From the NCBI RefSeq assembly GCF_003855155.1, contig NZ_CP034073.1, forward strand, positions 4,898,001 to 4,962,000: 64,000 bases of DNA. The letters run 5' to 3'. The notes beneath the pieces are model-generated. The model saw nothing but the letters and a program-made list of their open reading frames with translations, did no database searches and had not been told where the DNA came from. Shown in pieces: positions 4,593-18,976 of this stretch; the first letter of the stretch is position 1, and every line of letters starts with the position of its first letter. Position numbers and translations under genes: made by a program. This DNA comes from Shewanella psychromarinicola. Its GTDB lineage: Bacteria > Pseudomonadota > Gammaproteobacteria > Enterobacterales > Shewanellaceae.

Positions 4593-4792
4593 TCTGCCTT
4601 CAAACGACGGTGATTAGTTATTCGATAATGTATGTAAACCCTTAAATAGTTATACGGAAAACTATCAAATATGGTAGTTCAGGTAAATATGCTAGTTAGG
4701 TATTTGGTAGTTTAGCAGTTGATATTATTCAAGCATATAAAAATAGCATTTAATATCAATGAATTAGTTTAGTTTCGGTCCGATATTCATTC

Positions 4793-4808
4793 TGGCATAC
4801 TCGTTGCA
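4793..4808 (+). promoter_or_regulatory. Candidate sigma-54 (-24/-12) promoter of IBP1
   Basis: The sequence TGGCAT-ACTCG-TTGCA matches the sigma-54 consensus TGGCAC-N5-TTGCW, with the invariant GG and GC ten bases apart. It ends 84 bases before the IBP1 start codon, giving a predicted transcript start near 4819. A sigma-54 activator gene is present at 9411-11000. A comparable element precedes IBP2 at 14355. Confidence 0.72.
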
Positions 4809-4823
4809 AATACCTCAATAGAA

Positions 4824-4864
4824 CGGACAACCAGTCCGAAAGTAGTAACAATCTTGTTACTACT
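4824..4864 (+). promoter_or_regulatory. Two hairpins in the predicted IBP1 5' leader
   Basis: A short stem CGGAC/GTCCG (4824-4828 with 4834-4838) is followed by a perfect 11-bp inverted repeat, AGTAGTAACAA/TTGTTACTACT, with a 2-base gap (4841-4864). Both lie between the predicted transcript start and the ribosome binding site of IBP1. They could be an operator or an mRNA structure; the sequence alone does not decide. Confidence 0.5.
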
Positions 4865-4892
4865 TAATTTAACATTCCTTATAAGGGAAATA

Positions 4893-5636
4893 ATGATGAT
4901 CATGCTTAAAAAAAATTTGAACAAATTACTGTTGCCATTAGTTATTGGTGGTTTATTTGCTGGAAATGCAATGGCTGCTGGCCCAACTGCAGTTAATCTT
5001 AAAAGCGCAGGTTCATTCACTATTTTGAGTCAAACAGGTATTACTGATGTTTATCGTTCTGCCATTGTTGGTGATGTCGGCACTAGCCCTATCACAGGTG
5101 CGGCGCTACTACTTAACTGTAATGAAGTGACCGGCGCTATTTACACGGTTGACACTGCGGGCCCAGCTCCTTGCGCGATAAATTCAGCAAGCTACCTAGA
5201 ATTGGCTGTGGGTGACATGGGATTTGCCTATGATGACGCCGCAGGACGTGTTTCAGTGGATTTCAATGAACTTGGTGCCGGCGAAATCGGCGGCCTAACT
5301 ATGGTTCCTGGTCTTTACAAATGGTCTTCAGACCTTAATATCAGTAAAGATGTCACCCTTTCTGGCGGCCCAAATGATGTCTGGATTATGCAGGTGGCAG
5401 GTAATCTTAATCAGGCTAATGCAATGAACGTGACATTAGCGGGTGGCGCACTAGCCAAAAACATTTTCTGGCAGGTCGCAGGCTCGGTAACGCTAGGAAC
5501 GAACTCACATTTTGAAGGTATCGTGCTGAGTAAAACGATGATTGCCGTAAATACCGGCACCTCTATCAACGGTCGATTATTAGCTCAAACGGCAGTGACT
5601 TTACAACAAAATGCCATTACTCAGCCTGCTGAATAA
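4893..5636 (+). CDS. IBP1: secreted DUF3494 ice-binding protein
   Basis: This 247-residue protein has a Sec signal peptide ending near NAMA/AG (LLLPLVIGGLFAGNAMA) and one DUF3494 domain covering the rest. Family marks include GSFTILSQTGITDV, GDVGTSPITG, LVPGLYKW-type (MVPGLYKWSSDLNI), NDVWIMQVAG, AKNIFWQVAGSVTLG and the ending INGRLLAQTAVTLQQNAIT. The fold is a beta-solenoid that adsorbs to ice and inhibits ice growth or recrystallisation. Of three adjacent ATGs (4893, 4896, 4902), 4893 is chosen because AAGGGA lies a few bases upstream. It has a sigma-54-type promoter at 4793 and an intrinsic terminator at 5693, so it is probably monocistronic. There is no anchor, so it should be released or periplasmic. 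Confidence 0.93.
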   Translation: MMIMLKKNLNKLLLPLVIGGLFAGNAMAAGPTAVNLKSAGSFTILSQTGITDVYRSAIVGDVGTSPITGAALLLNCNEVTGAIYTVDTAGPAPCAINSASYLELAVGDMGFAYDDAAGRVSVDFNELGAGEIGGLTMVPGLYKWSSDLNISKDVTLSGGPNDVWIMQVAGNLNQANAMNVTLAGGALAKNIFWQVAGSVTLGTNSHFEGIVLSKTMIAVNTGTSINGRLLAQTAVTLQQNAITQPAE

Positions 5637-5692
5637 GTAGCAAGTAAGAGGGGGGAGATGTTAGGTAAATATTTTCCCCTACTAGTCAATTT

Positions 5693-5732
5693 AACAGGAT
5701 TACAAGCTCAGCTCTGTAATCCTGTTTTTTTG
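5693..5732 (+). terminator. Intrinsic terminator after IBP1
   Basis: An 11-bp perfect stem, AACAGGATTAC/GTAATCCTGTT (5693-5703 with 5716-5726), is followed by a T-rich run. It ends the IBP1 transcript. Confidence 0.9.
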
Positions 5733-6231
5733 GTTTATTCCATTGGTTTTTATAACTTTTATAATTATTTTGAAGCAAAAAAATGGTGGTATTTTTATTT
5801 GGTAGGTTACACGTTAAATACGCTAACGCTAAAGGCTTTCCCTGACCAGTCGGTGATGTATAAACATTAAAATATAACAGAAGGTAAGATGAATAATAAA
5901 TTATTTTTTTGAATTAAAAGTATTTTAGCAAAATCATTCACAATGATTTTTTTAGGCTTAACTGTGGCTATTATGTTTTCATTAATGACGACCATTTTCA
6001 AAGGTATTTCAAATGGAACTGACATCATGCAGATTTTTTTGAGTAGCATCAATACTGGGATCATCGCGCTTGCAGTATTTGAGTTGGCTTTGGTGATAAA
6101 TAAAGAGTATTCAGGCCATGAGGAAAGTGAGAGTGATGCTGTTGCCATCTTAAGGAGAACGATCCCTAGATTTATCGGAACGGTTTGTATTGCGCTATCG
6201 CTTGAGGGATTAATTATGGTGATTAAGTATA

Positions 6232-7332
6232 TACCCGTGATCATTGAAAATGCTTGATTTTGTCCCAAATGGGATCATCATAGCCCCATGAAACAAATTA
6301 CACTCTCGCCAGAACAAAAAGTAGCATTGGAAACTCGACATAAAAGCTCGAGTGATAGGCGTGAGTGTGATCGCATTAAAGCCATTTTACTACGCGATGA
6401 AAATTGGCCAACGCCAATGATTGCCCAAGCGTTACGTATTCACGAAACGACCGTAGTTCGATACATTGATGCCTATGCTCACGACCAAAAACTCACGTGT
6501 AATAGTGGCGGCTCCTTAAGTTATCTGAGTCAAGAGCAAACTGAACTATTGATTGCACACCTGTGTGAGGTGACCTACTTGCATAGCCATCAAATAGTCG
6601 CTTATATCTCAGAACAATTTCAGATTAAGTACACAGTGTCAGGCCTCAATAAATGGCTGCATAAACATCAGTTCAGCTATAAAAACCCTAAAGGGGTTCC
6701 TCACAAATTTGATGAAGACAAACAAACGGCTTTCATTGAATATTATGAGCAACTAAAATCCTCGTTAACCCCTGATGAACCGTTATTATTTATGGATGCG
6801 GTTCATCCGACCCAAGCCACAAAAATCACCGCTGGCTGGATAAAAAAAGGCGTTGATAAACCGATAGAAACGACGGGAAGCCGAACCCGTATTAACGTGG
6901 TTGGTGCAATCCGACTTGGTCACTTAACAGAAGCGGTCATTGAGCAATATAGCAAAACGGTTAACGGTGCATCCATCATCGATTTTTTAAACCAAATTAG
7001 AGCGCGTTACTCAACAAGTGGTGTTATCCATTTGGTGCTTGATGGCGCTGGATACCATCGAAATGCCTTAGTGGTTAAAGAGGCTAAAAATCTGAATATA
7101 ACATTGCATTACCTGCCGCCTTATAGTCCAAATTTAAACCCAATAGAACGATTGTGGAAGGTGATGAATAAACATGCGAGGAATGGGCAATACTTCGCAA
7201 CGACAAAAGAATTCCGACGAAAAATCACTGACTTTTTTAGCATCACCCTCCCCGATATTGCCGATACACTCGGTGATACAATTAATGATAACTTTCAGAA
7301 ATTAAAAACTGCAGTTTGAATTCACTTGAGTA
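6232..7332 (+). mobile_element. IS630-family insertion sequence, 1101 bp
   Basis: The element is bounded by imperfect inverted repeats, TACCCGTGATCATTGAAAAT on the left and TACTCAAGTGAATTCAAACT (reverse complement) on the right. It is flanked by the TA target duplication expected for the family (6230-6231 and 7333-7334). It carries a single full-length transposase. Removing it restores the reading frame of the host gene, which supports these exact ends. Confidence 0.87.
6288..7319 (+). CDS. IS630-family transposase
   Basis: A 343-residue DDE transposase. An N-terminal helix-turn-helix region (about residues 30-75, AQALRIHETTVVRYI) precedes the catalytic domain. The catalytic triad is visible as LFMDAVHPT, LVLDGAGYHRN and NPIERLWKVMNK, the usual D-D-E arrangement of IS630/Tc1 enzymes that insert at TA. 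The length is normal and no frameshift is seen, so the element may still be active. It ends 13 bases before the right end of the IS. Confidence 0.95.
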   Translation: MKQITLSPEQKVALETRHKSSSDRRECDRIKAILLRDENWPTPMIAQALRIHETTVVRYIDAYAHDQKLTCNSGGSLSYLSQEQTELLIAHLCEVTYLHSHQIVAYISEQFQIKYTVSGLNKWLHKHQFSYKNPKGVPHKFDEDKQTAFIEYYEQLKSSLTPDEPLLFMDAVHPTQATKITAGWIKKGVDKPIETTGSRTRINVVGAIRLGHLTEAVIEQYSKTVNGASIIDFLNQIRARYSTSGVIHLVLDGAGYHRNALVVKEAKNLNITLHYLPPYSPNLNPIERLWKVMNKHARNGQYFATTKEFRRKITDFFSITLPDIADTLGDTINDNFQKLKTAV

Positions 7333-7571
7333 TAGTCAACTCGATCTCGCCGGTAATTTATATTATCCAGTCGCCATTATTTGCAGTACTGCATTACTTT
7401 TGATTGCCTTAGCTATTTTTCTGCACTTTACAAAAAACACCCAAACATCGGCTGATTAACCCCGAGTCGTAATATTGTTTTTACAGACTGTTTATTCATT
7501 ATTCAGTGAGAGTAAAGTCTTCAGCAATATCAACAGCGCTCAGTTTTATTGTCATCTTGAATAATGTTAGC

Positions 7572-8552
7572 TTAATTGACTGAGCAACTCGCGTTATCAG
7601 GCATTTTTTCTATGTCTTTTTGGCTGCTGCGAATATTGCTATCTTCGGGTTGAAGTCTACGCGCTTTTTCAATCATTTCCATCGCACGCGGTTTGCAACC
7701 AGACAAAGACAAACTATAGGCGAAGTTATTTAAATAGGCGGCCTGTTGCTCAGCCTGTTGATCAATATAAGTCAATCCCTGTTGATACCAAAAAGCGGCC
7801 TGGGCGTTATCAATGGCTAAATAATAATTGCCGAGTAAAAAGTAACTTAGCCAGTAGTCAGGCCATTGTCTGGTGGCATTTTCAAGGGCACTGATCCCTT
7901 GAGTACTTTTACCACTACTGAGCAGATCCTGAGCGGCGCTGGCATAAATGAAAGGATCAAAATGTAAACTGGTTTTATCCGCTGGCACGGCAGCCAACAA
8001 CCAATACTGACCACGCAGCCAGGTTCGTTCAAATACCTTCAGTTCGGCAATACGATTTTTATTGGTGCCTGAATGCAACCGCACATACTGCTTATCCAAG
8101 TCATAACCTGTCACCACTGCGTAATGCCACATTGGATACCATGAGGTCGATACATTTTGTAAAATAATGACCGGAATATTTTCACTCACCAAAGACAGTA
8201 GCTGGGTCAGATTGCCTGATTCTGCATAGGCCAGCAGCCCCTGTTGACGTGCAGCTGCAACCATTTCAATTTGTAAACTGCCTTGCAACTCTGGAATAAA
8301 CAGTGCCGGCGCTATTTGTTGCGGCGTTTTGATTACCCCATAAAAATTGAATACTTCCGCGAGCGTGGTGGGGCCACAGAAATAATCCTCTTGAGGGTAA
8401 AAAGGCACCCCAGTAATTTGATGTTTATGCGCAATAGCGGGCGGGTTGGCTAGCAATATGGCGGTCTGGGGTGGTATCGACAGACAGCCGCTGAGAAATA
8501 AACAAAAGCCAGTAATACACATGGCTTTTGTGAACATGCTGATGGCATTCAT
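7572..8552 (-). CDS. PA2778-family C39-like cysteine peptidase lipoprotein
   Basis: A 326-residue protein with a lipoprotein signal (CLFLSGC, lipidated Cys near residue 23). A C39-type papain-like domain follows, with catalytic Cys in DYFCGPTTLAEVF and His in MWHYAVVTGYD. TPR-like helices occupy about residues 215-310 (LLGNYYLAIDNAQAAFWYQQGL, YSLSLSGCKPRAMEMIEKA). The family is known as PA2778 and typically stands next to a PA2779 gene, as here, 15 bases downstream of it. Its substrate is not known. It may process or bind the partner in the envelope (inference). It should be co-transcribed with the gene at 8568. Confidence 0.88.
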   Translation of the reverse strand: MNAISMFTKAMCITGFCLFLSGCLSIPPQTAILLANPPAIAHKHQITGVPFYPQEDYFCGPTTLAEVFNFYGVIKTPQQIAPALFIPELQGSLQIEMVAAARQQGLLAYAESGNLTQLLSLVSENIPVIILQNVSTSWYPMWHYAVVTGYDLDKQYVRLHSGTNKNRIAELKVFERTWLRGQYWLLAAVPADKTSLHFDPFIYASAAQDLLSSGKSTQGISALENATRQWPDYWLSYFLLGNYYLAIDNAQAAFWYQQGLTYIDQQAEQQAAYLNNFAYSLSLSGCKPRAMEMIEKARRLQPEDSNIRSSQKDIEKMPDNASCSVN

Positions 8553-8567
8553 GCTTGAAAATACGAT

Positions 8568-8945
8568 TTAATTTATCGGCCGAATAAAGGAAAATACATC
8601 GGTAACACCCACCAAATCGAGCACCACCAACACAACTAATACTGTGACGACAACCCCTACTACGCCAGCAGCTGCAGGCATATCATTCATCTGGGTATTT
8701 AATTGATTTATTTCCTGATCGGTCATACTGGCAATGCGCATCTCTGCATCCTCGAGACTGACCCCAAGTGCCACCAGTTTGTCTTGAACCTCAGCGCTGT
8801 TGAACATTTCGAGAACTTGCTGTTTATTATATATATTTTGCTGTTGGACGATAACCTGCTCGGAGGAAACTATGCCGGCGTAGGCACCCGAAATACAAGT
8901 CAAATAAGTTAACATAACTGCGGCGACTGCGAGAACTTTTTTCAT
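8568..8945 (-). CDS. PA2779-family small envelope protein
   Basis: A 125-residue protein with a signal peptide (MKKVLAVAAVMLTYLTCISGAYA). Its middle is a soluble helical segment (QQQNIYNKQQVLEMFNSAEV, LVALGVSLEDAEMRIASM), and a very hydrophobic helix lies near the end (AAAGVVGVVVTVLVVLVVLDLVG). This is the PA2779 pattern, always paired with the PA2778 peptidase that follows here on the same strand. Function is unknown. The pair sits just downstream, in the same direction, of the two-component system at 9411-13996, separated by a repeat-containing gap. Confidence 0.85.
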   Translation of the reverse strand: MKKVLAVAAVMLTYLTCISGAYAGIVSSEQVIVQQQNIYNKQQVLEMFNSAEVQDKLVALGVSLEDAEMRIASMTDQEINQLNTQMNDMPAAAGVVGVVVTVLVVLVVLDLVGVTDVFSFIRPIN

Positions 8946-9114
8946 TGGATTTCCTTTGGTTTAGCGAATGTAAATTTCTCATAGAGAGTAGAGTTAATTT
9001 TGAGCAATAACAAGCTATATCGGGATGATACCCGCTAGACAAGAAAGGTAAATAGTTGTTGCTTATTTGGGGACTGATTTGTGAATTGATTTGGGAACTG
9101 CGGCGACTCACATT

Positions 9115-9275
9115 ACCAGTCCTAGATGCTAGGACGCTGCGCGGCGAGATCCTATAACATCTTAGCAGCGAAGCGACACTAGTAGGACGCCGCCCGTCCC
9201 AGCAGCGAGGCAACACTAGAACCTAGCAGACCAAAGGTCGCATTAGCAGCCGTAGTCGTCCTATTCCTAGAACCT
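9115..9275. repeat. CTAG-rich dispersed repeat, copy 1
   Basis: This gap between the PA2779 gene and the response regulator contains many CTAG tetranucleotides. It shares segments with 22252-22497, including GCTGCGCGGC, ATCTTAGCAGCGAAG and CTATTCCTAGA in the same order. No coding frame is convincing. The rest of 8946-9410 shows nothing further beyond a small CGGG/CCCG inverted repeat near 9021. Confidence 0.75.
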
Positions 9276-9410
9276 TGAACGCTGTCACTTCTTGACATGA
9301 TCAATAGTGCATTCCGAGGTTATTTGGGTATATTAAGCCACAATATCGCGCTTAAAAATCTAACATGTTTGCCCCTATTTTGCTTATTAATGTTAGTGCC
9401 GCAGTTAATG

Positions 9411-11000
9411 TTAATGGCGCACTATGCCATATTTGCGCATTCGGGCACGCAGGGTGCTGGGGTTGAGTCCGAGGATCACTGCCGCACCTTGCTGGCCTTC
9501 AATGCGCCAATTGGTCTGCTGCAACACGTTAATAATATGCTCATGCTCCAACTCAACCAGCGTTTTAACCGAAGGTTCCTCCCTAGGTACTCGTCTGTTA
9601 ACGCCATCGAAGCGATCGTTGCTAGACACTCGTTTGTCAAAGCTATCAAAGCGATCTAAGATCTGCAGTGATGTTCCTGCGCTGAGGATCACAGCTCGTT
9701 CAATGGCACTTTCCAGCTCTCGTACATTGCCGGGCCAGTGATGCTGCTGCAGGGTGTTCTGCGCCGCGTTGCTGACGATATTAATCTGCTTGCCGATTTT
9801 CTTATTAAATTTAGCCACAAAATGGTTGACCAGCAACGGAATATCTTCCTTACGTTGCCTTAGTGGCGGCAAGGTGATCGGGAATACGTTCAGCCGATAA
9901 TAGAGATCTTCACGGAACTTACCATTACGCACTTCATCAATCAGATTGCGATTGGTGGCGGCGATAATGCGCACGTCGACCTTAATTGTGTGAGGACTCC
10001 CCAGGCGTTCAAATTCGCCATCCTGAATCACTCGGAGCAGTTTGGCCTGCATCTCGAGTGGCATTTCGCCAATCTCATCAAGAAACAGAGTGCCGCCATC
10101 GGCCAGCTCAAAACGACCTATCTGTTTGCTATCGGAACCGGTGAAAGCGCCCCGCTCCCGGCCAAACAGCTCGCTCTCGATCAGCGTTGCTGGCAGGGTA
10201 GTACAGTCTACCGTGATCAACGGACTTTTTTTGCGTGCGTTGCGGCTGTGGATAGCGCGGGCGACTAAGCCTTTACCTGTGCCGGTCTCACCAAGCAACA
10301 GTACGGTCGCATTCATAGGCGCAACTTGCTCAACTTGATGAAACACCTGCGAGAGCAGTTGGCTGTTACCGATAATTTCGTCGAAATTAAACTGCCGCGC
10401 CACTTCTTGCTGCAGATAAACGTTCTCTGCCTGAAGTTTGTCCTTCAACTGTTTAATTTCTGTATACGTTCCTTGCAGTGACGCTTCGGCCTTTTTACGT
10501 TCCTCTATTTCCTCGGTGCATTGCAGATTAATGCGGAGCAGCTCTGCCGTACGTTTTTGCACTGTATCTTCCAGTGTGTCGTTACTGCTCTCCAGTTGCT
10601 TATAAAGCAAGCGCACTTCCAGCATGTTATGGATGCGCGTTTTGACTTCGACCAGATCAAAAGGTTTACTGATAAAATCCTTGGCACCAGATTGTAGTGC
10701 TTGCAGTTTATGGCCTGGTTGGGCGGTGAGAACGAGCACAGGTAAATAGTCGGCCGGATCGTCAGCCTTAAGCGCTGCCATCACCTCAAATCCATCCATC
10801 CTCGGCATCTGCAGATCAAGCAGAACAAGATCATAATGGTTTTCAGCATTTAGGTCACAAACAGCTTGAGGATCCATGGTTGTCGTCACCCTTGTATAGC
10901 CGCTTTCAAGCAGTAATTGCTCGAGCAGAGTCACATTAGGCTCTTGATCATCGACAATCAGAATCTTGGCATTGAGAATGTCCGTTGCAGTGATCGTCAT
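9411..11000 (-). CDS. Sigma-54-dependent response regulator (REC-AAA+-Fis)
   Basis: A 529-residue NtrC-type activator. An N-terminal receiver domain (residues 10-130) carries the DD pair in ILIVDDQE and phospho-acceptor Asp62 in LVLLDLQMPRMDG. A coiled coil (about 135-205) leads to the AAA+ domain with Walker A GETGTGKG, the sigma-54-contacting loop GAFTGSDSKQ, Walker B GTLFLDEIGEM and R-finger region RIIAATNRNL. A Fis-type HTH ends the protein (GAAVILGLNPSTLRARMRKYG). Its start overlaps the kinase stop by one base, so the two are co-translated. It is the only sigma-54 activator in the window and lies between two ice-binding genes with sigma-54-type promoters, so it is the obvious candidate regulator (inference). 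Confidence 0.95.
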   Translation of the reverse strand: MTITATDILNAKILIVDDQEPNVTLLEQLLLESGYTRVTTTMDPQAVCDLNAENHYDLVLLDLQMPRMDGFEVMAALKADDPADYLPVLVLTAQPGHKLQALQSGAKDFISKPFDLVEVKTRIHNMLEVRLLYKQLESSNDTLEDTVQKRTAELLRINLQCTEEIEERKKAEASLQGTYTEIKQLKDKLQAENVYLQQEVARQFNFDEIIGNSQLLSQVFHQVEQVAPMNATVLLLGETGTGKGLVARAIHSRNARKKSPLITVDCTTLPATLIESELFGRERGAFTGSDSKQIGRFELADGGTLFLDEIGEMPLEMQAKLLRVIQDGEFERLGSPHTIKVDVRIIAATNRNLIDEVRNGKFREDLYYRLNVFPITLPPLRQRKEDIPLLVNHFVAKFNKKIGKQINIVSNAAQNTLQQHHWPGNVRELESAIERAVILSAGTSLQILDRFDSFDKRVSSNDRFDGVNRRVPREEPSVKTLVELEHEHIINVLQQTNWRIEGQQGAAVILGLNPSTLRARMRKYGIVRH

Positions 11001-13996
11001 CAGGTCACCTCATTATTGGGGATATCTGCTGACTGATTGGTATATTCAAGCGCGATGTCTAATGTCTTCAAAAATTCATTAATCCGCAGCGGTTTAGTCA
11101 AATAACGAAAGAAGCCGGCGTCCAGACCTTTCTCAATATCGCGAGGAATGGCATTCGCACTCAGTGCCATCACCGGGATAGCGGCTGTGGTCGGATCTTC
11201 CCTGAGAATATGCAATGCGGTCAAGCCGCTGATCCCCGGCAGGTTGATGTCCATCAAGATCACATCCGGCTGATAGGTATGCGCCATCTCGATACCGCTG
11301 ACGGCGTCCGTAGCACTGAGAAAACGCAGATTGGGTCGACGGGCAATGATATCCTCAATGAGCATCAAGTTAGCAGGATTATCCTCAACATAGAGCAAGC
11401 TTTTCAACCGTTCAGGGTCCTCACATTGAAGTGGTAGCAAGGGCATTGATGTCGTCGCATCAAGGTTAGATAAGGAGTCGACGGTACGCTTCAGTTCAAA
11501 CCAGAACACGCTGCCAACGCCGACATGGCTTTGTACACCGATAATGCCGTCCATCGATTCGACCAAACGTTTACTGACCACCAGCCCGATCCCGGTTCCT
11601 TCTTGATTATTGGCTTCTTGCCCCAGACGGTTAAACGGTTGGAAAAGTTGCCCAAGTTGCTCCTCTGACAATCCTTCACCTGTATCGCGGACACTGATCC
11701 GGATCATATCTTCCGTGCTTTGGCTGCTTTCTAATATCACGCTGCCACCCTCACGATTGTATTTAATCGCATTGGAAAGCAGATTAAGAATCACCTGCTT
11801 TAGCCTGGTCCGATCGACGTTGACAAAGTTTATCGAGTCCGAACGGTTAAAGATCATCTTGATACCATAGGTTTTCGCTTGCGGCTCGCTCATCAAGATG
11901 CATTCCTGCATCACTTCGTCCAGCGAAATCGTTTCGATTGACATGGGCAGCTTGCCAGATTCAATCAACGCCAGATCGAGGACTTCATTGATTAACTCCA
12001 ACAAATACCACCCCGCCTTGAGGATCTGAGCAATGCTTTTTTGCTGCGTATGCTGCGGGGGTGGCGTGCTCGACTCTAGTAGTTGAGCAAAACCGAGGAT
12101 CGCGCCAAGTGGCGTACGCAGTTCATGGCTCATACTAGACAAAAAATCGGATTTGGCGAGGTTGGCTTTCTCTGCTGCCATAGTGGCACTTTCCAACTCA
12201 ACATTTTTGTCCTGTAATTTTTGATCCAAACGATTGCGCTCAGTCACATCGCGGGCACCGTAAAACACTCCCTGCAGATTATTGTCCCGGTCATAAAAAG
12301 TGGTCGCGTTAATGGAGACTACCGTCTCCTGGCCGTTTTGGGCGCGCGCGGTGAGCTCAAGGTCGGTGACCTTCTTTTCACATAGCACCTTTGTTATTCC
12401 AGCCACGGCAAGCTCCGGATTGGTAAAGTAGTCTTTAAATGGCGTACCGAGCATTTCATCACGGCTGCAGTCCGTGAGCAGCTCCATCTCCTTGTTAACA
12501 TCGGTAATAATACCGGACGGATCGGTAGTCGTCAGTGCATCAATGTTGGATTCAATCAGGTTACGGGTATAAAAATGTTGGTCTTGCAGACGCTGACTGA
12601 GGTCTTTTTGCTCTTGCTCGATGCGTTTACGCGCGGTGTTGTCGGTGCCGATCAGTAGATAACCTATGATAGCGTCTTGCTCATCCCGGAGCGCGGTTAC
12701 CGACACGACCGCCGGAAAGCGGCTACCATCCTTGCGGATGTAGGTCAGCTCGTAGATATCCTCAATGCCGCGCCGGGCTTTGAACACCAAAGCATCGAAC
12801 CCGGGCGTGATCGCAGTGTCAAGTTCAAGACTCAGTACTTTGGCGCGTTCGATAACTTCTTGTGGATCGGAAATGTCGGCGGGGGTGATCTTGTTCATCA
12901 CCTCATCTGCTGTGTAGCCCAGCATACGCTCGGCGCCCACATTGAAAATCTGGATCACGCCGAGTGCATCGGTGGCAATACTGGAAAAGTTGGCACTATT
13001 GAAAATGGCATTCTGCAATGCGCCCGCTTTGATAATTTCCTCTTCCGCTGCCTTGCCGACACTGTTATCGGTGCCGATCAACAGATAACCTATGATGCTC
13101 TCCTCGTCGTCGCGTAGTGCTGTGACCGACACTACCGCCGGAAAGCGGCTACCATCCTTACGGATGTAGGTTAATTCATAGATATCTTCAATCCCGCGTG
13201 TCGCCTTAAATACTAGCGCATCGAAGCCGGGGGTGATCGGGGTGTCAAGTTCAAGACTGAGTACTTTAGCGCGCTCAATAACCTCCAGGGGATCGGAAAT
13301 GTCGGCTGGGGTGATCTTGTTCATCACCTCTTCCGCTGTGTAACCCAGCATACGCTCGGCGCCCACGTTAAATATCTGGATAACGCCTTCCGCATCCGTG
13401 GCAATACTGGAAAAGTTGGCACTGTTGAAAATGGCACTCTGCAGTTCGCCCGCTTTGAGCAGCGCTTCTTCTGCCTGTTTGCCAACACTATTATCGGTGC
13501 CGATCAACAGATAACCGATGATCGCCTCCTGCTCGTCGCGCAGTGCCGTGACCGATACCACGGCAGGAAGGCGGTTGCCATCCTTACGGATGTAAGTCAA
13601 TTCGTAGATATCTTCAATCCCGCGTGTCGCCTTGAATACCAGCGCATCGAAGCCAGGCTCTATCAAGGTGCCAAGTTCATCTGAGAGCGCCTCGGCACGC
13701 GCAATCACTTCCTGGGGATCGGAAATATCGGCAGGCGTGATCTTGTCCACCACATCATCGGCCAAGTAACCCAGCATCCGTTCGGCGCCGACGTTGAAAA
13801 TCTGGATGACGCCTTTAGCATCGGTAGCAATGCAGGAGAAATTAGCGCTATTGAAAATAGCCCGCTGCAGCGCCCCGGCATTGAGCAGTGCTTCTTCAGC
13901 CTGCCTGTGCTCGGTGATCTCTTCAATTGCCGCGTTAAACCGCTCTGCATCAGACTTGGCTAAGCTTGACGGAATTATTTTATTGTTACTTTTCAT
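11000..13996 (-). CDS. Soluble multi-PAS hybrid histidine kinase
   Basis: A 998-residue kinase without membrane segments. Three nearly identical 142-residue PAS/PAC units start at residues 40, 182 and 324 (each with IFNSANFS, GAERMLGY and DIYELTYIRKDG). A different fourth PAS lies at about 470-595. The HisKA domain has phospho-His near residue 625 (SMSHELRTPLG). The HATPase domain follows (NLLSNAIKYNREGG, DTGEGLS, GTGIGLVV). A C-terminal receiver has acceptor Asp near 916 (VILMDINLPG). PAS units suggest sensing of a cytoplasmic ligand, redox state or oxygen; no cofactor residue can be assigned. It is the first gene of a two-gene operon with the response regulator. GC content appears higher than in neighbours, suggesting acquisition (impression, not computed). 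Confidence 0.94.
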   Translation of the reverse strand: MKSNNKIIPSSLAKSDAERFNAAIEEITEHRQAEEALLNAGALQRAIFNSANFSCIATDAKGVIQIFNVGAERMLGYLADDVVDKITPADISDPQEVIARAEALSDELGTLIEPGFDALVFKATRGIEDIYELTYIRKDGNRLPAVVSVTALRDEQEAIIGYLLIGTDNSVGKQAEEALLKAGELQSAIFNSANFSSIATDAEGVIQIFNVGAERMLGYTAEEVMNKITPADISDPLEVIERAKVLSLELDTPITPGFDALVFKATRGIEDIYELTYIRKDGSRFPAVVSVTALRDDEESIIGYLLIGTDNSVGKAAEEEIIKAGALQNAIFNSANFSSIATDALGVIQIFNVGAERMLGYTADEVMNKITPADISDPQEVIERAKVLSLELDTAITPGFDALVFKARRGIEDIYELTYIRKDGSRFPAVVSVTALRDEQDAIIGYLLIGTDNTARKRIEQEQKDLSQRLQDQHFYTRNLIESNIDALTTTDPSGIITDVNKEMELLTDCSRDEMLGTPFKDYFTNPELAVAGITKVLCEKKVTDLELTARAQNGQETVVSINATTFYDRDNNLQGVFYGARDVTERNRLDQKLQDKNVELESATMAAEKANLAKSDFLSSMSHELRTPLGAILGFAQLLESSTPPPQHTQQKSIAQILKAGWYLLELINEVLDLALIESGKLPMSIETISLDEVMQECILMSEPQAKTYGIKMIFNRSDSINFVNVDRTRLKQVILNLLSNAIKYNREGGSVILESSQSTEDMIRISVRDTGEGLSEEQLGQLFQPFNRLGQEANNQEGTGIGLVVSKRLVESMDGIIGVQSHVGVGSVFWFELKRTVDSLSNLDATTSMPLLPLQCEDPERLKSLLYVEDNPANLMLIEDIIARRPNLRFLSATDAVSGIEMAHTYQPDVILMDINLPGISGLTALHILREDPTTAAIPVMALSANAIPRDIEKGLDAGFFRYLTKPLRINEFLKTLDIALEYTNQSADIPNNEVT

Positions 13997-14354
13997 GACG
14001 AATCTCTATCACTATCCGTTGATCCTGGCCGAAACGACCTATCTGGCTTCACACAGGCAAAACAGATATGCGGGAGGAAACAAAGGAAGCAATTTCAATG
14101 CGGCCTTTGAGGCCTTTTAGGTATTTTTTCAGTGGCGTAAATATAACATTTTATGACGTAAAACGCTTAAATTTATTCTTCTGGAAAACCGTACTATTTA
14201 CTGTTTTTACAACACAAACCCCTCCATATATTACGGTTCTGTCATATGCTGAGGCCTAGAGTATTCCTGCCTCGTCGGTGTAATTAATGAATATATAGTA
14301 TTAAACAATTGTTACTAAACAATTATTTAATTATATTTGACAACTTTAACTTAT
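13997..14354. other. Intergenic region between kinase and IBP2
   Basis: This is the divergent region between the kinase (leftward) and IBP2 (rightward). It holds a small GGCCT/AGGCC hairpin with four Ts near 14102-14118 and an AT-rich stretch with AACAATTGTTACTA at 14304-14317. That motif resembles AACAATCTTGTTACTA in the IBP1 leader (4847-4862) and could be a shared regulator site. No gene is seen. Confidence 0.4.
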
Positions 14355-14370
14355 TGGCATGACTGTTGCT
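14355..14370 (+). promoter_or_regulatory. Candidate sigma-54 (-24/-12) promoter of IBP2
   Basis: TGGCAT-GACTG-TTGCT matches the sigma-54 consensus with correct GG-to-GC spacing of ten bases. It lies about 190 bases upstream of the IBP2 start codon, giving a predicted start near 14382 and a long leader. It is the same type of element as at 4793. Confidence 0.7.
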
Positions 14371-14561: not shown

Positions 14562-17232
14562 ATGAATATATTTAACAAAAAGGCATCGCTTCTATTTACG
14601 ATGCTGCTGGGAGTTTTCCTCTTAGCGGGTTGTAATAACGACGATAATAACAACACTAATAACGATAATGGGGCCGTACTATCATCCATAGCAATTACCC
14701 CTGCCAACTCAAGCTTGCCCGCCGGCTTGAAGCAACAGTTTACTGCTATAGGCACCTATTCGGACGGCACCTCGTCTGATATCTCCAGCTCGGCAACCTG
14801 GTCATCTGATGACTCGGCTATTGCCACAATCAATGGCAGCGGTCTCGCCACAGGGGTTATCCCAGGTTCAGCTGCGATTACAGCATCTATAAGCTCATCA
14901 GATGTGCAATCGGCAACAACCACGCTAACCGTCACCGATGCAATGCTCAATTATCTATCTGGCCATCACACCAGCTAATCCGAGCATTGCCAATGGCTTG
15001 ACCAAACAGTTCATGGTTACTGGTACTTATTCGAACGGCACGTCGCCAGATGTCACCGCATCAGTCACTTGGTCATCGGCCAATACGCAAGTTGCCACAG
15101 TGAATGAGAGTGGCCTTGCCAGCGGCGTTGCCATAGGCTCTGCGCTTATTACCGCTTCTTTAGGCTCTGAGGAAACAACGACTGAGCTCACCATCACAGA
15201 TACTATTTTAAGCTCAATAGCGTTAACGCCCATTGACCCAAGCATTACCAAAGGCTTGACCCAGCAGTTGACCGCGACCGCGACTTATTCAGACGGTATC
15301 TCAGTTGACATTACGGCGTCAGCCACTTGGTTATCTGCAGAGACCGACGTTGCGACAGTAAATGATAGTGGTCTGGCGAGTGCCCTTGCCACGGGTACCT
15401 CAGTTGTTACCGCAACTTTTGGTGCTAAATCAGCGACTTCAACGTTAACTGTTACGGATGCGGTGTTGAATTCAATTGCGCTAACACCTGTTGACCCCAG
15501 CATTGCCAATGGCTTGACCGAGCAGTTTACTGCTACCGGTACGTATTCCGATGGTACATCTGTTGATATCACCACCTCAGTGACTTGGTCATCGGCTGAT
15601 ACCAGTGTTGCGACAGTGGTCTCTAGTGGTATTGCAAGAGGTATTGCCACTGGGTCGTCGGTTATTACCGCAACCTCAGGCGCGATATCAGCCACTTCAG
15701 TGTTAACGGTTACGGATGCGACGTTATCTTCAATTACGGTAACGCCAGGCAATCCAAGTATTCCCAAAGACCAAACGCAACAATTAAAAGCTACAGGGGT
15801 TTTCTCAGACGGAACATCGACTGACATCACGGCCTCAGCTGAGTGGTCTTCTGCAAATACCAGTGTTGCTACAGTAAACACTAATGGTCTTGCAAGTGGC
15901 GTGGCCTCTGGTACGTCAGATATTACCGCAACATCAGGTGCTACATCAGGTAGTACAACATTAACTGTCACTAATGCCATATTGAGTTCATTAGTTGTTT
16001 CGCCAGCTACTCCGAGCGTTATCAAGGGTATGAGCAAGCAGTTTGCTGCCACCGGCACTTATTCAGACGACTCTGTTCATGATGTATCGACAAAGGTGAT
16101 CTGGTCATCAACAGATCTCTTAGTAGCAACGATAGATACTAACGGTCTTGCCACTGGTATTGATGCAGGTTCGTCGCTTATTACGGCAACCTTAGACACG
16201 ATATCCGATGATAGCAACTTGACTGTCATAAATGCGACGCTGGATTCAATTACAGTAACGCCGAGTGATCCGATAATTTCTAACGGTAATACGAAACAGT
16301 TCACTGCTACAGGAACTTATTCTGACACTAGCGAAATTAATATCACCTCATCAGTTACTTGGTCATCTGCCGATACACAGGTAGCCACTATGAATGCCAA
16401 CGGTAAGTCAAACAGCGGTCTCGCTAGCGGCGTTGATGTCGGTACATCCGTCATTATTGCAACACTAGACGGCAAATCAGCGGAAACAAACCTGACGGTC
16501 GAAGAAGCGATACTCAATAACCCGCTAGCACCAGAATTGGGTGAAGTGGCGCGTTTTGCCATCCTTGCCTCACAGGCCATTACGACCACGAGTGGTTCTG
16601 CCATTGTCGGTGGTGACTTGGCGATTCTTGACCAAGCACGCTCTTATTATGCAGGCTTTACCCCTGGAGTGAAGGCAGGCGAACTTGATGAACTGACCAA
16701 TGGCTTATCTTATGCGGGCGACGACAGCACACCCCCTTATGTGATCCCTGTGCCTTATGCCTCAATGGTTGCATTTATCAATCAGTCGAGAACTGATTTA
16801 GGTATTGCCTATAGCTTTCTCGCGAAAGATCCTAATCCAAACGCTGCTACTCAGGTGCTTCCGATTGAATTGGGTAATCTGACCATGACTCGTGGTGTCT
16901 ATAAAACGGCATCTAACGTCACTATTCAGACCGGTACTCTTACGCTTGATGCTCAAGGAGAGCCTGATTCTGTGTTCATCTTTACCATAGGCGGTGATCT
17001 ATCTACTGGTGCTCCAGGTGGCGACATTGTCCTTAGCAATGGCGCACAGGCAAAGAACGTCTATTGGAGAACCGCAGGAAAAACCGTTATCGGCACTGGC
17101 ACCAGCTTCGCTGGAAATGTCTTCGCTTGGTCAAAAGTGAATGTGCTTACCGATGCTATCGTCACAGGTCGACTAATGGCGGTTACGGAAGAGGTTACTT
17201 TGGAATCCAATGATATAACCAAAAAACCTTAG
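14562..17232 (+). pseudogene. IBP2: BIG_2-repeat ice-binding lipoprotein, frameshifted
   Basis: The N-terminus has a lipoprotein signal ([10 protein letters not shown], Asn at +2, so outer-membrane sorting is expected). Seven BIG_2 immunoglobulin-like repeats of about 84 residues follow, each with an ITPxNPS-like start, an [16 protein letters not shown] core and a WSSADTxVATV strand. A C-terminal DUF3494 ice-binding domain begins near RFAILASQAITTTSG and ends GRLMAVTEEVTLESNDIT. A frameshift lies between repeats one and two. The frame from 14562 stops at 14978, and the rest is open from about 14938 to 17232. The cause is visible as a duplicated TATC at 14952-14959; losing one TATC would restore a single frame of about 889 residues. 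The architecture equals the BIg-DUF3494 ice adhesin described in Shewanella frigidimarina. It could be a true mutation, a switchable repeat or a sequencing error. Confidence 0.88.
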
Positions 17233-17297: not shown

Positions 17298-17506
17298 AAG
17301 GATCCCTAAGCGGTGCTGATATAAGCGCAAAACATTGCGATTTTTAAGCACCGTTACCGATAAACCATTTACCTATCAATGAATGCCTTTTGGCATAACC
17401 GACCATTCACAGCAGCAAAGAAAATCTATTTATCGGCTCTATTCCCGATGAAGGACGTAAGCATTCTTGGTGTTGCGAGGTTAAATTTTTTTAAAGGATA
17501 CAAAAT

Positions 17507-18976
17507 ATGCACACAAGCAAAAAACATTTTACTCAGCCGATGTGGGCTAGCGCCGCAGTGCTGCTTACCTTAGTCGCGGGTTGTAGTGACGATAACAACG
17601 ATCCAGCTATTGTGTCCGTCATTGCGCCAGAAGTTGTGCCGACTATTAATATCAGCAATCCAAGTGATCTTGCGGCTAATGTGGCGATCAACCAACAGGT
17701 CACAGTAACTTTCAATGAAGCCATGGATGGGCAAACGATTAATGATGCCAGCTTTATTGTAAAAGATGCCAGCGAAACCGTCGTGGTAGGAGCCGTCTCT
17801 TATAATGAAACGAGTCATACCGCTGTGTTTACCCCAAACAGTGATTTTACGTATAACACTCAGTACCAAGTATCAATCACAACGGATGTAAAAAATGCTA
17901 AAGGCGTCGCGCTGACCAGTGGCTTTAGCTGGTCATTTACCACCTCTGCGTTGCATGATGTTATTGCACCACAGATAGTATCAAACGACCCGGTTGATCT
18001 AGCCAAGAATTTTGCTTTGAATAGAAATGTGACCGCTGATTTTAGTGAGGCGCTTGATCCTAATACGGTAAACGGATCCAGCTTTACCTTAAGTGATGGT
18101 ACAAATCTTGTCGCGGGTGTGATTAGTTTTCAAGGCACCAAGGCAAGCTTCAATCCAGATGATAATTTAGCGGCCAATACGCTCTATACCGCGACCCTGA
18201 CTACTGCTATCGCCGATTTGGCGATCCCAGCTAATCTATTAGCGACGAAGTTCAGCTGGAGTTTTACCACTAGTGCTGCCGCGGCTCTTGGGCCAAAACC
18301 GGTTAACTTAAGCACTGCTGGGGATTTTGCCATTTTGACTAAATCTGGTATTACCAATGTTCCAGCTTCCGCTATAACAGGCGACATAGGTGCAAGCCCT
18401 ATCACGTCGGCTGCGATGGACAATGTAACGTGTTCTGAAATCAACGGTACTATTTATGGCTCAGACGTCGGATACACAGGTAGTGGTGTAGTTAACTGCT
18501 TTAAAGGCGCAGCACCTGATAATACTCTGGTTGCCCAAGCCGTGCTTGATATGGGCACAGCCTATAACGATGCTGCTGGCAGAACGTTACCCGACTATAC
18601 TGAACTCGGTGCCGGTAATATTAGTGGCATGACGTTAGAGCCAGGTCTATATAAGTGGAGTTCAGGTGTGTTGATCACTACCAATGTGACCCTTTCAGGC
18701 AGTGCCAATGACGTGTGGATTTTTCAGATAGCAGGTGACCTTACTCAAGAGGGTGCCAGTCGTATTACTTTAGAAGGCGGCGCTCAGGCAAAAAATATCT
18801 TCTGGCAAGTGGCCGGAAGTGCCGGTGTGGCACTTGATACAACGGTGCATTTTGAGGGTGTGGTTTTGGCTGAAAAAGGCATAAGCTTAAATACGGACGC
18901 GACGGTTAACGGCAGATTGATGACCCAAACGGCCGTCACCTTAGATCATAATATCGTGGTCGAGCCCGCTGAGTAA
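17507..18976 (+). CDS. IBP3: Ig-like/DUF3494 ice-binding lipoprotein
   Basis: A 489-residue lipoprotein (LLTLVAGC, Ser at +2, predicted outer-membrane anchoring). Two Big_5/SbsA-type Ig-like domains lie at about residues 43-148 and 152-255, with motifs NPSDLAANVAINQQVTVTFN, NDPVDLAKNFALNRNVTA and the repeated FSWSFTTSA. The DUF3494 domain (about 263-489) shares with IBP1 ILTKSGITNV, ITGDIGASPIT, LEPGLYKWSS, NDVWIFQIAGDL, AKNIFWQVAGS and GRLMTQTAVTLDHN. The ribosome binding site AAAGGA precedes the ATG. It stands 274 bases after IBP2 with no sigma-54 element of its own visible, so read-through from IBP2 is possible. The terminator at 19099 ends it. Confidence 0.93.
   Translation: MHTSKKHFTQPMWASAAVLLTLVAGCSDDNNDPAIVSVIAPEVVPTINISNPSDLAANVAINQQVTVTFNEAMDGQTINDASFIVKDASETVVVGAVSYNETSHTAVFTPNSDFTYNTQYQVSITTDVKNAKGVALTSGFSWSFTTSALHDVIAPQIVSNDPVDLAKNFALNRNVTADFSEALDPNTVNGSSFTLSDGTNLVAGVISFQGTKASFNPDDNLAANTLYTATLTTAIADLAIPANLLATKFSWSFTTSAAAALGPKPVNLSTAGDFAILTKSGITNVPASAITGDIGASPITSAAMDNVTCSEINGTIYGSDVGYTGSGVVNCFKGAAPDNTLVAQAVLDMGTAYNDAAGRTLPDYTELGAGNISGMTLEPGLYKWSSGVLITTNVTLSGSANDVWIFQIAGDLTQEGASRITLEGGAQAKNIFWQVAGSAGVALDTTVHFEGVVLAEKGISLNTDATVNGRLMTQTAVTLDHNIVVEPAE

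Follow-up and report, generated by a model that had tools for sequence, protein, structure and literature searches.

Sigma-54-dependent control of exported surface proteins has been described for the PrsK/PrsR system of PEP-CTERM/EpsH exosortase clusters, a two-component system in which an NtrC-type activator acts on targets that carry a -24/-12 element and an upstream activator motif (Haft 2006, PMC1569441). Some proteins with a DUF3494 (Ice_binding) domain are reported to carry PEP-CTERM tails (PMC7783341), and an antifreeze-like gene is reported to be higher at 10 °C (PMC8092127). In a survey of DUF3494 neighbours in Arctic genomes, response regulators of the LytTR kind were found nearby, and the clustered genes were proposed to be co-regulated (PMC9957290). 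The ice adhesin SfIBP_1 of Shewanella frigidimarina has been described as a protein (Vance 2018, via PMC9957290 and PMC6419212), its transcriptional control going unmentioned in the available text of these citing papers. In the open-access literature we found no described sigma-54 control of DUF3494 or ice-binding proteins, and the main text of the Geobacter RpoN regulon paper makes no mention of ice-binding, DUF3494, BON or CsbD (PMC2725144). Here we analyse a 64,000-nucleotide stretch of the Shewanella psychromarinicola genome (NZ_CP034073.1, positions 4,898,001 to 4,962,000; ‘the window' below), in which genes for three DUF3494 proteins, the putative ice-binding proteins IBP1, IBP2 and IBP3, lie around a hybrid histidine kinase and a sigma-54-type response regulator. 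Sequence comparison indicates, with high confidence, that this locus constitutes a self-contained sigma-54 switch for ice-binding genes under the adjacent kinase-regulator pair. A sigma-54 two-component regulon is a known kind of system; here its output is unusual and its candidate enhancer has become visible. The features on which the argument turns are the following.

4665..4689, + strand: putative activator-binding (enhancer) box of IBP1, placed 127 bp upstream of the sigma-54 17-mer
4793..4808, + strand: -24/-12 element of IBP1, TGGCAT-N5-TTGCA, exact match, score 17.0, aligned and kept in Psychromonas antarctica
4893..5636, + strand: IBP1, signal peptide and DUF3494 domain (PF11999, 210 bits)
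9411..11000, - strand: response regulator and sigma-54 activator, with receiver, coiled linker, AAA+ domain with GAFTGS, and Fis-type helix-turn-helix
11000..13996, - strand: soluble hybrid histidine kinase, with four PAS domains, HisKA, HATPase and receiver
14221..14254 (core 14224-14248), + strand: candidate enhancer of IBP2, an imperfect dyad whose outer arms read CCTC / GAGG
14354..14370, + strand: -24/-12 element of IBP2, and probably also of IBP3, TTGGCATGACTGTTGCT, exact match, score 18.9
14562..14978, + strand: 5' part of IBP2, lipoprotein signal and first Big_2 domain, in a frame different from that of the remainder
14938..17232, + strand: 3' part of IBP2, Big_2 repeats and DUF3494 domain
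17507..18976, + strand: IBP3, lipoprotein signal, two Big_5 domains and DUF3494 domain

The locus resembles PrsK/PrsR in its two-component design, its NtrC-type activator, its combination of -24/-12 elements with an upstream activator motif and its exported surface targets. It differs in that PrsK is a transmembrane protein whereas the kinase here is soluble and has several PAS domains, in that PrsR belongs to TIGR02915 whereas the regulator here reaches only 332.4 bits against a curated cut-off of 502.6, and in that visual inspection of the targets here shows no PEP-CTERM tails and no exosortase locus was observed (compared with PMC1569441). Membership of the PrsR/PrsK family was rejected on the bit score, the lack of a PrsK model among the matches listed for the kinase (25 of 141) and the lack of a membrane stretch. 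The statement in the original prediction, made from this DNA, that sigma-54 control of DUF3494 proteins had not been described agrees with the literature, with the caveat that such control is published for PEP-CTERM proteins and that some DUF3494 proteins carry PEP-CTERM tails.

Both -24/-12 elements show the GG at -24, the GC at -12 and the fixed spacing of sigma-54 promoters, and they stand at the coordinates and on the strand where they had been predicted. On the two strands of the window, TGGCAY-N5-TTGCW has just these two exact matches, each on the sense strand of a DUF3494 gene and upstream of it. Allowing one mismatch tells nothing more, since the seven matches then obtained are at the shuffle level (mean 7.36). 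The whole genome, which is complete (5.13 Mb) and holds one rpoN gene and three DUF3494 genes, all of them inside the window, contains the 15-base core TGGCAY-N5-TTGC 38 times, as against 16 times for the reversed pattern. Genomic surroundings were read for 36 of these 38 sites, and 12 of the 36 lie outside long open reading frames (ORFs); downstream of some of the extragenic ones we recognised flgB, flgF and fliE by eye, which we take to be sigma-54 targets. Scoring of these sites with an RpoN matrix follows a check proposed together with the original prediction: among the 36 scored sites that of IBP2 (18.9) is joint top with three others, IBP1 reaching 17.0. Furthermore, the IBP2 element occupies the same aligned column in four genomes (the window, G031 of the same genus, G105 and Psychromonas) while its flanks vary, and the IBP1 element is conserved in two (the window and Psychromonas antarctica).

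Some 126 bp upstream of the -24/-12 element, the alignment of the IBP2 promoters from the four genomes revealed another conserved segment. This candidate enhancer is conserved also in two promoters of Geobacteraceae relatives. A matrix derived only from the four IBP2 boxes was applied to three further promoters. Its best match lay at -123 for IBP1 of Psychromonas, at -124 for a BON gene of L088 (a Geobacteraceae metagenome genome in which this activator also occurs) and, on the opposite strand, at -124 for IBP1 of the window. Equally good matches arose within -135 to -115 in 0, 1 and 8 of 1000 shuffles, respectively, and with the position left free in 0, 11 and 79 of 1000. The box lies at -123 to -130 in all six gammaproteobacterial promoters, and that of Psychromonas IBP1 is strong (18.5); among the 36 checked genomic sigma-54 cores, none but the two IBP sites attains a box score of 4, itself a weak value. 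When six IBP2-type promoters were aligned (those of the window, G031, G105 and Psychromonas and two from Geobacteraceae relatives), both groups could be followed from the enhancer to the -12 element through a further conserved block (~14309-14330; TGTTA-N-T-N-A, then TA) between enhancer and -24 element. This block is present in all six promoters and would fit a site for a bending protein or a second activator site.

The pairing of box and promoter was evaluated at loci from relatives of a Geobacteraceae genome, 74 of 196 of which matched the activator at E <= 1e-130. Twenty of the best-matching loci, with activators 73-77% identical over nearly full length, were compared with a control set of 33 loci chosen for DUF3494 genes and lacking this activator (L239 and L242 included). 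With the IBP2-only matrix, a box at -135 to -115 accompanied 30 of the 35 sigma-54 sites scoring at least 15 at the 20 loci, and 34 of the 42 scoring at least 14, compared with 47 of 4000 random positions; at the control loci the corresponding counts were 0/12 and 0/20, with 59/6600 for random positions. DUF3494 ORFs themselves, tested with a loose cut-off for the element and a strict one (12) for the box, showed the pair in 10 of 12 cases at the 20 loci, one pass being marginal, and in 0 of 37 at the control loci (two of the 37 being short antisense frames); of 1200 windows drawn at random from the 20 loci, 35 had it. A thirteenth DUF3494 gene, missed by our profile and confirmed with Pfam, also has the pair. 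The reverse comparison used a matrix built from 35 promoters of Geobacteraceae relatives, L088 included, and no window promoter: its best placement fell at -123 to -130 in all six gammaproteobacterial promoters and, among 127,952 placements in the window, the IBP2 box at 14224 ranked first (27.1), the same box on the other strand second and the IBP1 box at 4665 third (12.9). Other targets of the pair in these distantly related sediment bacteria include BON, STAS and PRC-barrel genes. The strongest enhancers belong to a conserved gene beside the activator (L271:5665-6249 and counterparts at other loci), which has no Pfam match at E 0.001. Taken together, the conserved elements, the constant-spacing enhancer and the reciprocal prediction support the claim of a sigma-54 ice-binding regulon under the adjacent pair.

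The regulator, which had been described as carrying a full GAFTG-type AAA+ domain, has Response_reg, Sigma54_activat, AAA lid and Fis-type helix-turn-helix domains and keeps the GAFTG, Walker A, Walker B and arginine-finger-region motifs, the composition of an NtrC-type enhancer-binding regulator. With NtrC, AtoC, FhlA and NifA it shares the AAA+ domain, the GAFTG loop and the Fis-type helix-turn-helix, but it falls below the NCBIfam cut-off of every model among the 25 matches listed, and its receiver and linker are closest to a non-sigma-54 receiver family, unlike those of NtrC-type activators. Its helix-turn-helix end is almost unchanged between the gammaproteobacterial copies and those of the Geobacteraceae relatives. 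The kinase is, as predicted, a multi-PAS hybrid enzyme, and its stop codon overlaps the regulator start by one base (TGATG). It lacks a transmembrane stretch (maximum 19-residue hydropathy 1.42), and a soluble kinase fits a cytoplasmic signal. Kinase orthologues are very unlike in length (998, 869, 732 and 1027 residues for window 11000-13996, L034, L035 and L082), and the differences fall in the repeated PAS part, as if PAS copies had been gained or lost.

All three window genes pass PF11999 with 188 to 220 bits (curated cut-off 28.7), and from their likeness to proteins solved as ice-binding their products are predicted to be ice binders. The nearest Protein Data Bank entry to the IBP2 domain is 6bg8, presumably the ice-binding domain of S. 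frigidimarina SfIBP_1; the IBP2 domain of G031 is identical to that chain at 229 of 232 residues, and the protein with this domain is encoded in the same kinase-activator locus. The window IBP2 is the same kind of protein as SfIBP_1 but is frameshifted. IBP3, the third DUF3494 gene, was absent from the original prediction, as was the split of IBP2 over two frames. IBP3 genes have no sigma-54 element of their own (best upstream scores 5.2 to 11.0; 7.5 for the window copy), as expected for a gene inside an operon, and the gap after IBP2 holds no strong rightward terminator, only a 5-pair stem at 17326-17339. Hence IBP3 is probably read from the IBP2 promoter on a shared transcript.

In the mechanism that we propose, the multi-PAS hybrid kinase would phosphorylate the regulator, as their gene overlap and domains suggest. 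The regulator would bind the dyad enhancer about 126 bp upstream of the -24/-12 elements, a step suggested by the way in which enhancer, spacing and regulator are conserved together. The AAA+ domain of the regulator would open the promoters held by RNA polymerase with RpoN, an activity established for this activator family. One promoter would drive IBP1 and the other IBP2 and probably IBP3, giving DUF3494 proteins that are secreted or anchored as lipoproteins. The long ones would be carried on Ig-like stalks, an arrangement published for the S. frigidimarina ice adhesin, and the switch would thus decide when ice-binding surface proteins are produced.

Of 129 genomes of the genus, three carry the activator (E <= 1e-120) and five have DUF3494 genes, one of them weak; in all three carriers the activator and DUF3494 genes are neighbours. 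The 394 genomes of the order gave 20 matches at E <= 1e-100; apart from the two carriers identified before, G340 (Psychromonas) alone has a full-length orthologue, the remaining 17 aligning only from about residue 156 onward. The original prediction had suggested a check that relatives keep the pair beside DUF3494 genes, and all four gammaproteobacterial carriers found do so, with the activator within about 4-9 kb; the Psychromonas antarctica carrier belongs to another family than the window genome. The converse fails. In G024, two DUF3494 genes are accompanied by a kinase with 49% identity, a Crp/Fnr-type regulator and a receiver protein that lacks an AAA+ domain; the best sigma-54 element there scores only 6.1, well short of those here. 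Loci of this type (G024, L090, L236, L116 and L124) resemble that of the window in having a homologous kinase and receiver beside DUF3494 genes and differ in the receiver, which lacks an AAA+ domain, and in having no comparable -24/-12 element (the best being that of G024 and one of 13.7 in L116).

A particular Crp/Fnr-type regulator, matching the G024 copy at E < 1e-45, occurs in the vicinity of DUF3494 genes at nine loci, in a sample that is biased, three of the nine having been fetched via the receiver; L036, L090, L236, L116 and L124 also have a related kinase and receiver, and L224, L086, L229 and L231 have the Crp type only. It is absent from 313 kb of loci of Geobacteraceae relatives and from the window and 30 loci of its genome. 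Two further loci, L239:7420-10532 and L242:1335-10899, were first taken as additional cases of the sigma-54 arrangement and then rejected, being polysaccharide clusters with a LuxO-like activator of another family and no enhancer. Their distant DUF3494-like genes have -24/-12-like elements (15.3 and 13.8), possibly an independent link of DUF3494 with sigma-54. A tree of the regulator, whose bootstrap had not converged, is compatible with gammaproteobacterial copies that nest within those of the Geobacteraceae relatives and with copies that stand next to them. Most likely the activator of cold marine gammaproteobacteria was acquired horizontally with the IBP2-type target gene, or is shared with the Geobacteraceae side; a direction from the Geobacteraceae side to the gammaproteobacteria is read from distribution only.

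Several observations weigh against the switch as proposed, or against parts of it. The regulator loop reads GAFTGS and not the canonical GAFTGA, the sigma-54 score matrix was of our own making from the general consensus, and the G031 -24/-12 element is imperfect (13.8). The window IBP1 box is the weakest of the six: with the IBP2-only matrix it scores 5.3 on its own strand and 8.8 on the opposite strand three bases on, it is matched by the 79 free-position shuffles given above, and its score of 9.6 is below the cut-off of 12 used in the strict test of DUF3494 ORFs. In that test two of the 12 ORFs miss beside the marginal pass; both have strong or fair elements and no box in range, and one has a box at -113 by a seven-box matrix. 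IBP2 is split over two frames near 14940 in the window, which may be a real lesion or a sequence error, and is a single intact ORF in G031, G105 and Psychromonas. Outside the window, the enhancer-plus-promoter pattern matches the genome at three other places (G000:C1:231371, 379765 and 4683453), possibly by chance or as extra regulon members. The -24 hexamer of IBP2 also doubles as a sigma-70-like site (10/12), though the scan total was not above shuffles; this overlapping pair, together with the chance level of one-mismatch matches, is what would speak for -24/-12 matches that are accidental or decayed and for IBP genes that use sigma-70 promoters. We consider that very improbable, given an IBP2 element held at one column in four genomes, an enhancer at fixed spacing and a matrix prediction that works in both directions. 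Still less credible is a PrsK/PrsR system that sits beside DUF3494 genes by accident: PrsR too is a sigma-54 response regulator with surface-protein targets and a two-part motif (PMC1569441), but the score far below the TIGR02915 cut-off, the kinase without a membrane stretch or a PrsK model among the matches listed and the three IBP proteins without PEP-CTERM tail by eye all point elsewhere.

Two further alternatives accept the switch and change its extent. A regulon of IBP2 and IBP3 only, with IBP1 under another activator or being lost, would account for the weak IBP1 box and for the failure to find IBP1 at the G031 and G105 loci; we think it unlikely, since Psychromonas IBP1 keeps both elements, with a box that none of 1000 shuffles equals, and the window IBP1 box takes third place with an independent matrix. 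A much stronger contender, to which we give slightly less than an even chance, holds that the switch is real and not specific for ice, the kinase responding in a general way to the envelope, to osmotic conditions or to growth on surfaces, with DUF3494 proteins as one class of adhesin for which ice binding is one use in cold seas. In its favour, orthologues in the Geobacteraceae relatives face BON, STAS and PRC-barrel genes and the conserved gene adjoining the regulator, DUF3494 genes share this regulon in bacteria not known to us as ice dwellers, and sigma-54 has been tied to the cell exterior in published surveys (PMC3162934). In this genome, the enhancer marks the two IBP promoters only among the 36 sigma-54 cores checked, and the nearest solved relative of IBP2, as we take 6bg8 to be, is the S. 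frigidimarina ice-binding domain. Because the orthologues face these other genes, the activator need not be ice-specific, and because the box occurs at no other checked core, the regulon looks narrowed to IBP genes here. As a name for what the regulator does in general, ice-binding regulon is accordingly too restrictive. The sigma-54 switch under the adjacent pair remains the reading that we prefer for this locus.

Several neighbouring features were also recorded. The IBP1 start at 4893 was chosen by us, the ORF list giving 4854. The IBP1 leader RNA (4840-4865) forms an 11-pair hairpin that is conserved, with G-U pairs, in Psychromonas (z -4.92 and -2.26), and a small hairpin after it covers the likely ribosome-binding site; these may provide a second, RNA-level control. 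A DDE_3 transposase gene lies at 6288-7319, in the interval from IBP1 to the activator. The activator is followed on its own strand by genes for a C39-peptidase-like protein and a DUF6627 protein (7572-8945), as it is in G105, and no sigma-54 element scoring at least 14 faces these genes.

The control of DUF3494 ice-binding protein production has not been worked out in searchable papers, and this locus, by supplying a kinase, an activator, two base-exact promoters and an enhancer sequence, opens the question to ordinary genetics. Furthermore, with enhancer and promoter used in combination, the members of the regulon could be listed for any genome that bears the activator. The results suggest a broader regulon of surface proteins with DUF3494 proteins among its members, a point of relevance to their role outside ice. 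At even odds, in our estimate, a mobile cassette of kinase, activator, enhancer-promoter and surface-protein gene would have moved from the Geobacteraceae side to gammaproteobacteria of cold seas and its regulon would have contracted there to ice adhesins; elsewhere the same sensor family would be wired to DUF3494 genes through a Crp/Fnr-type regulator, the sensor input and not the output being what remains associated with DUF3494 genes. If this is true, a single sensory cue would call forth DUF3494 surface proteins across several phyla.

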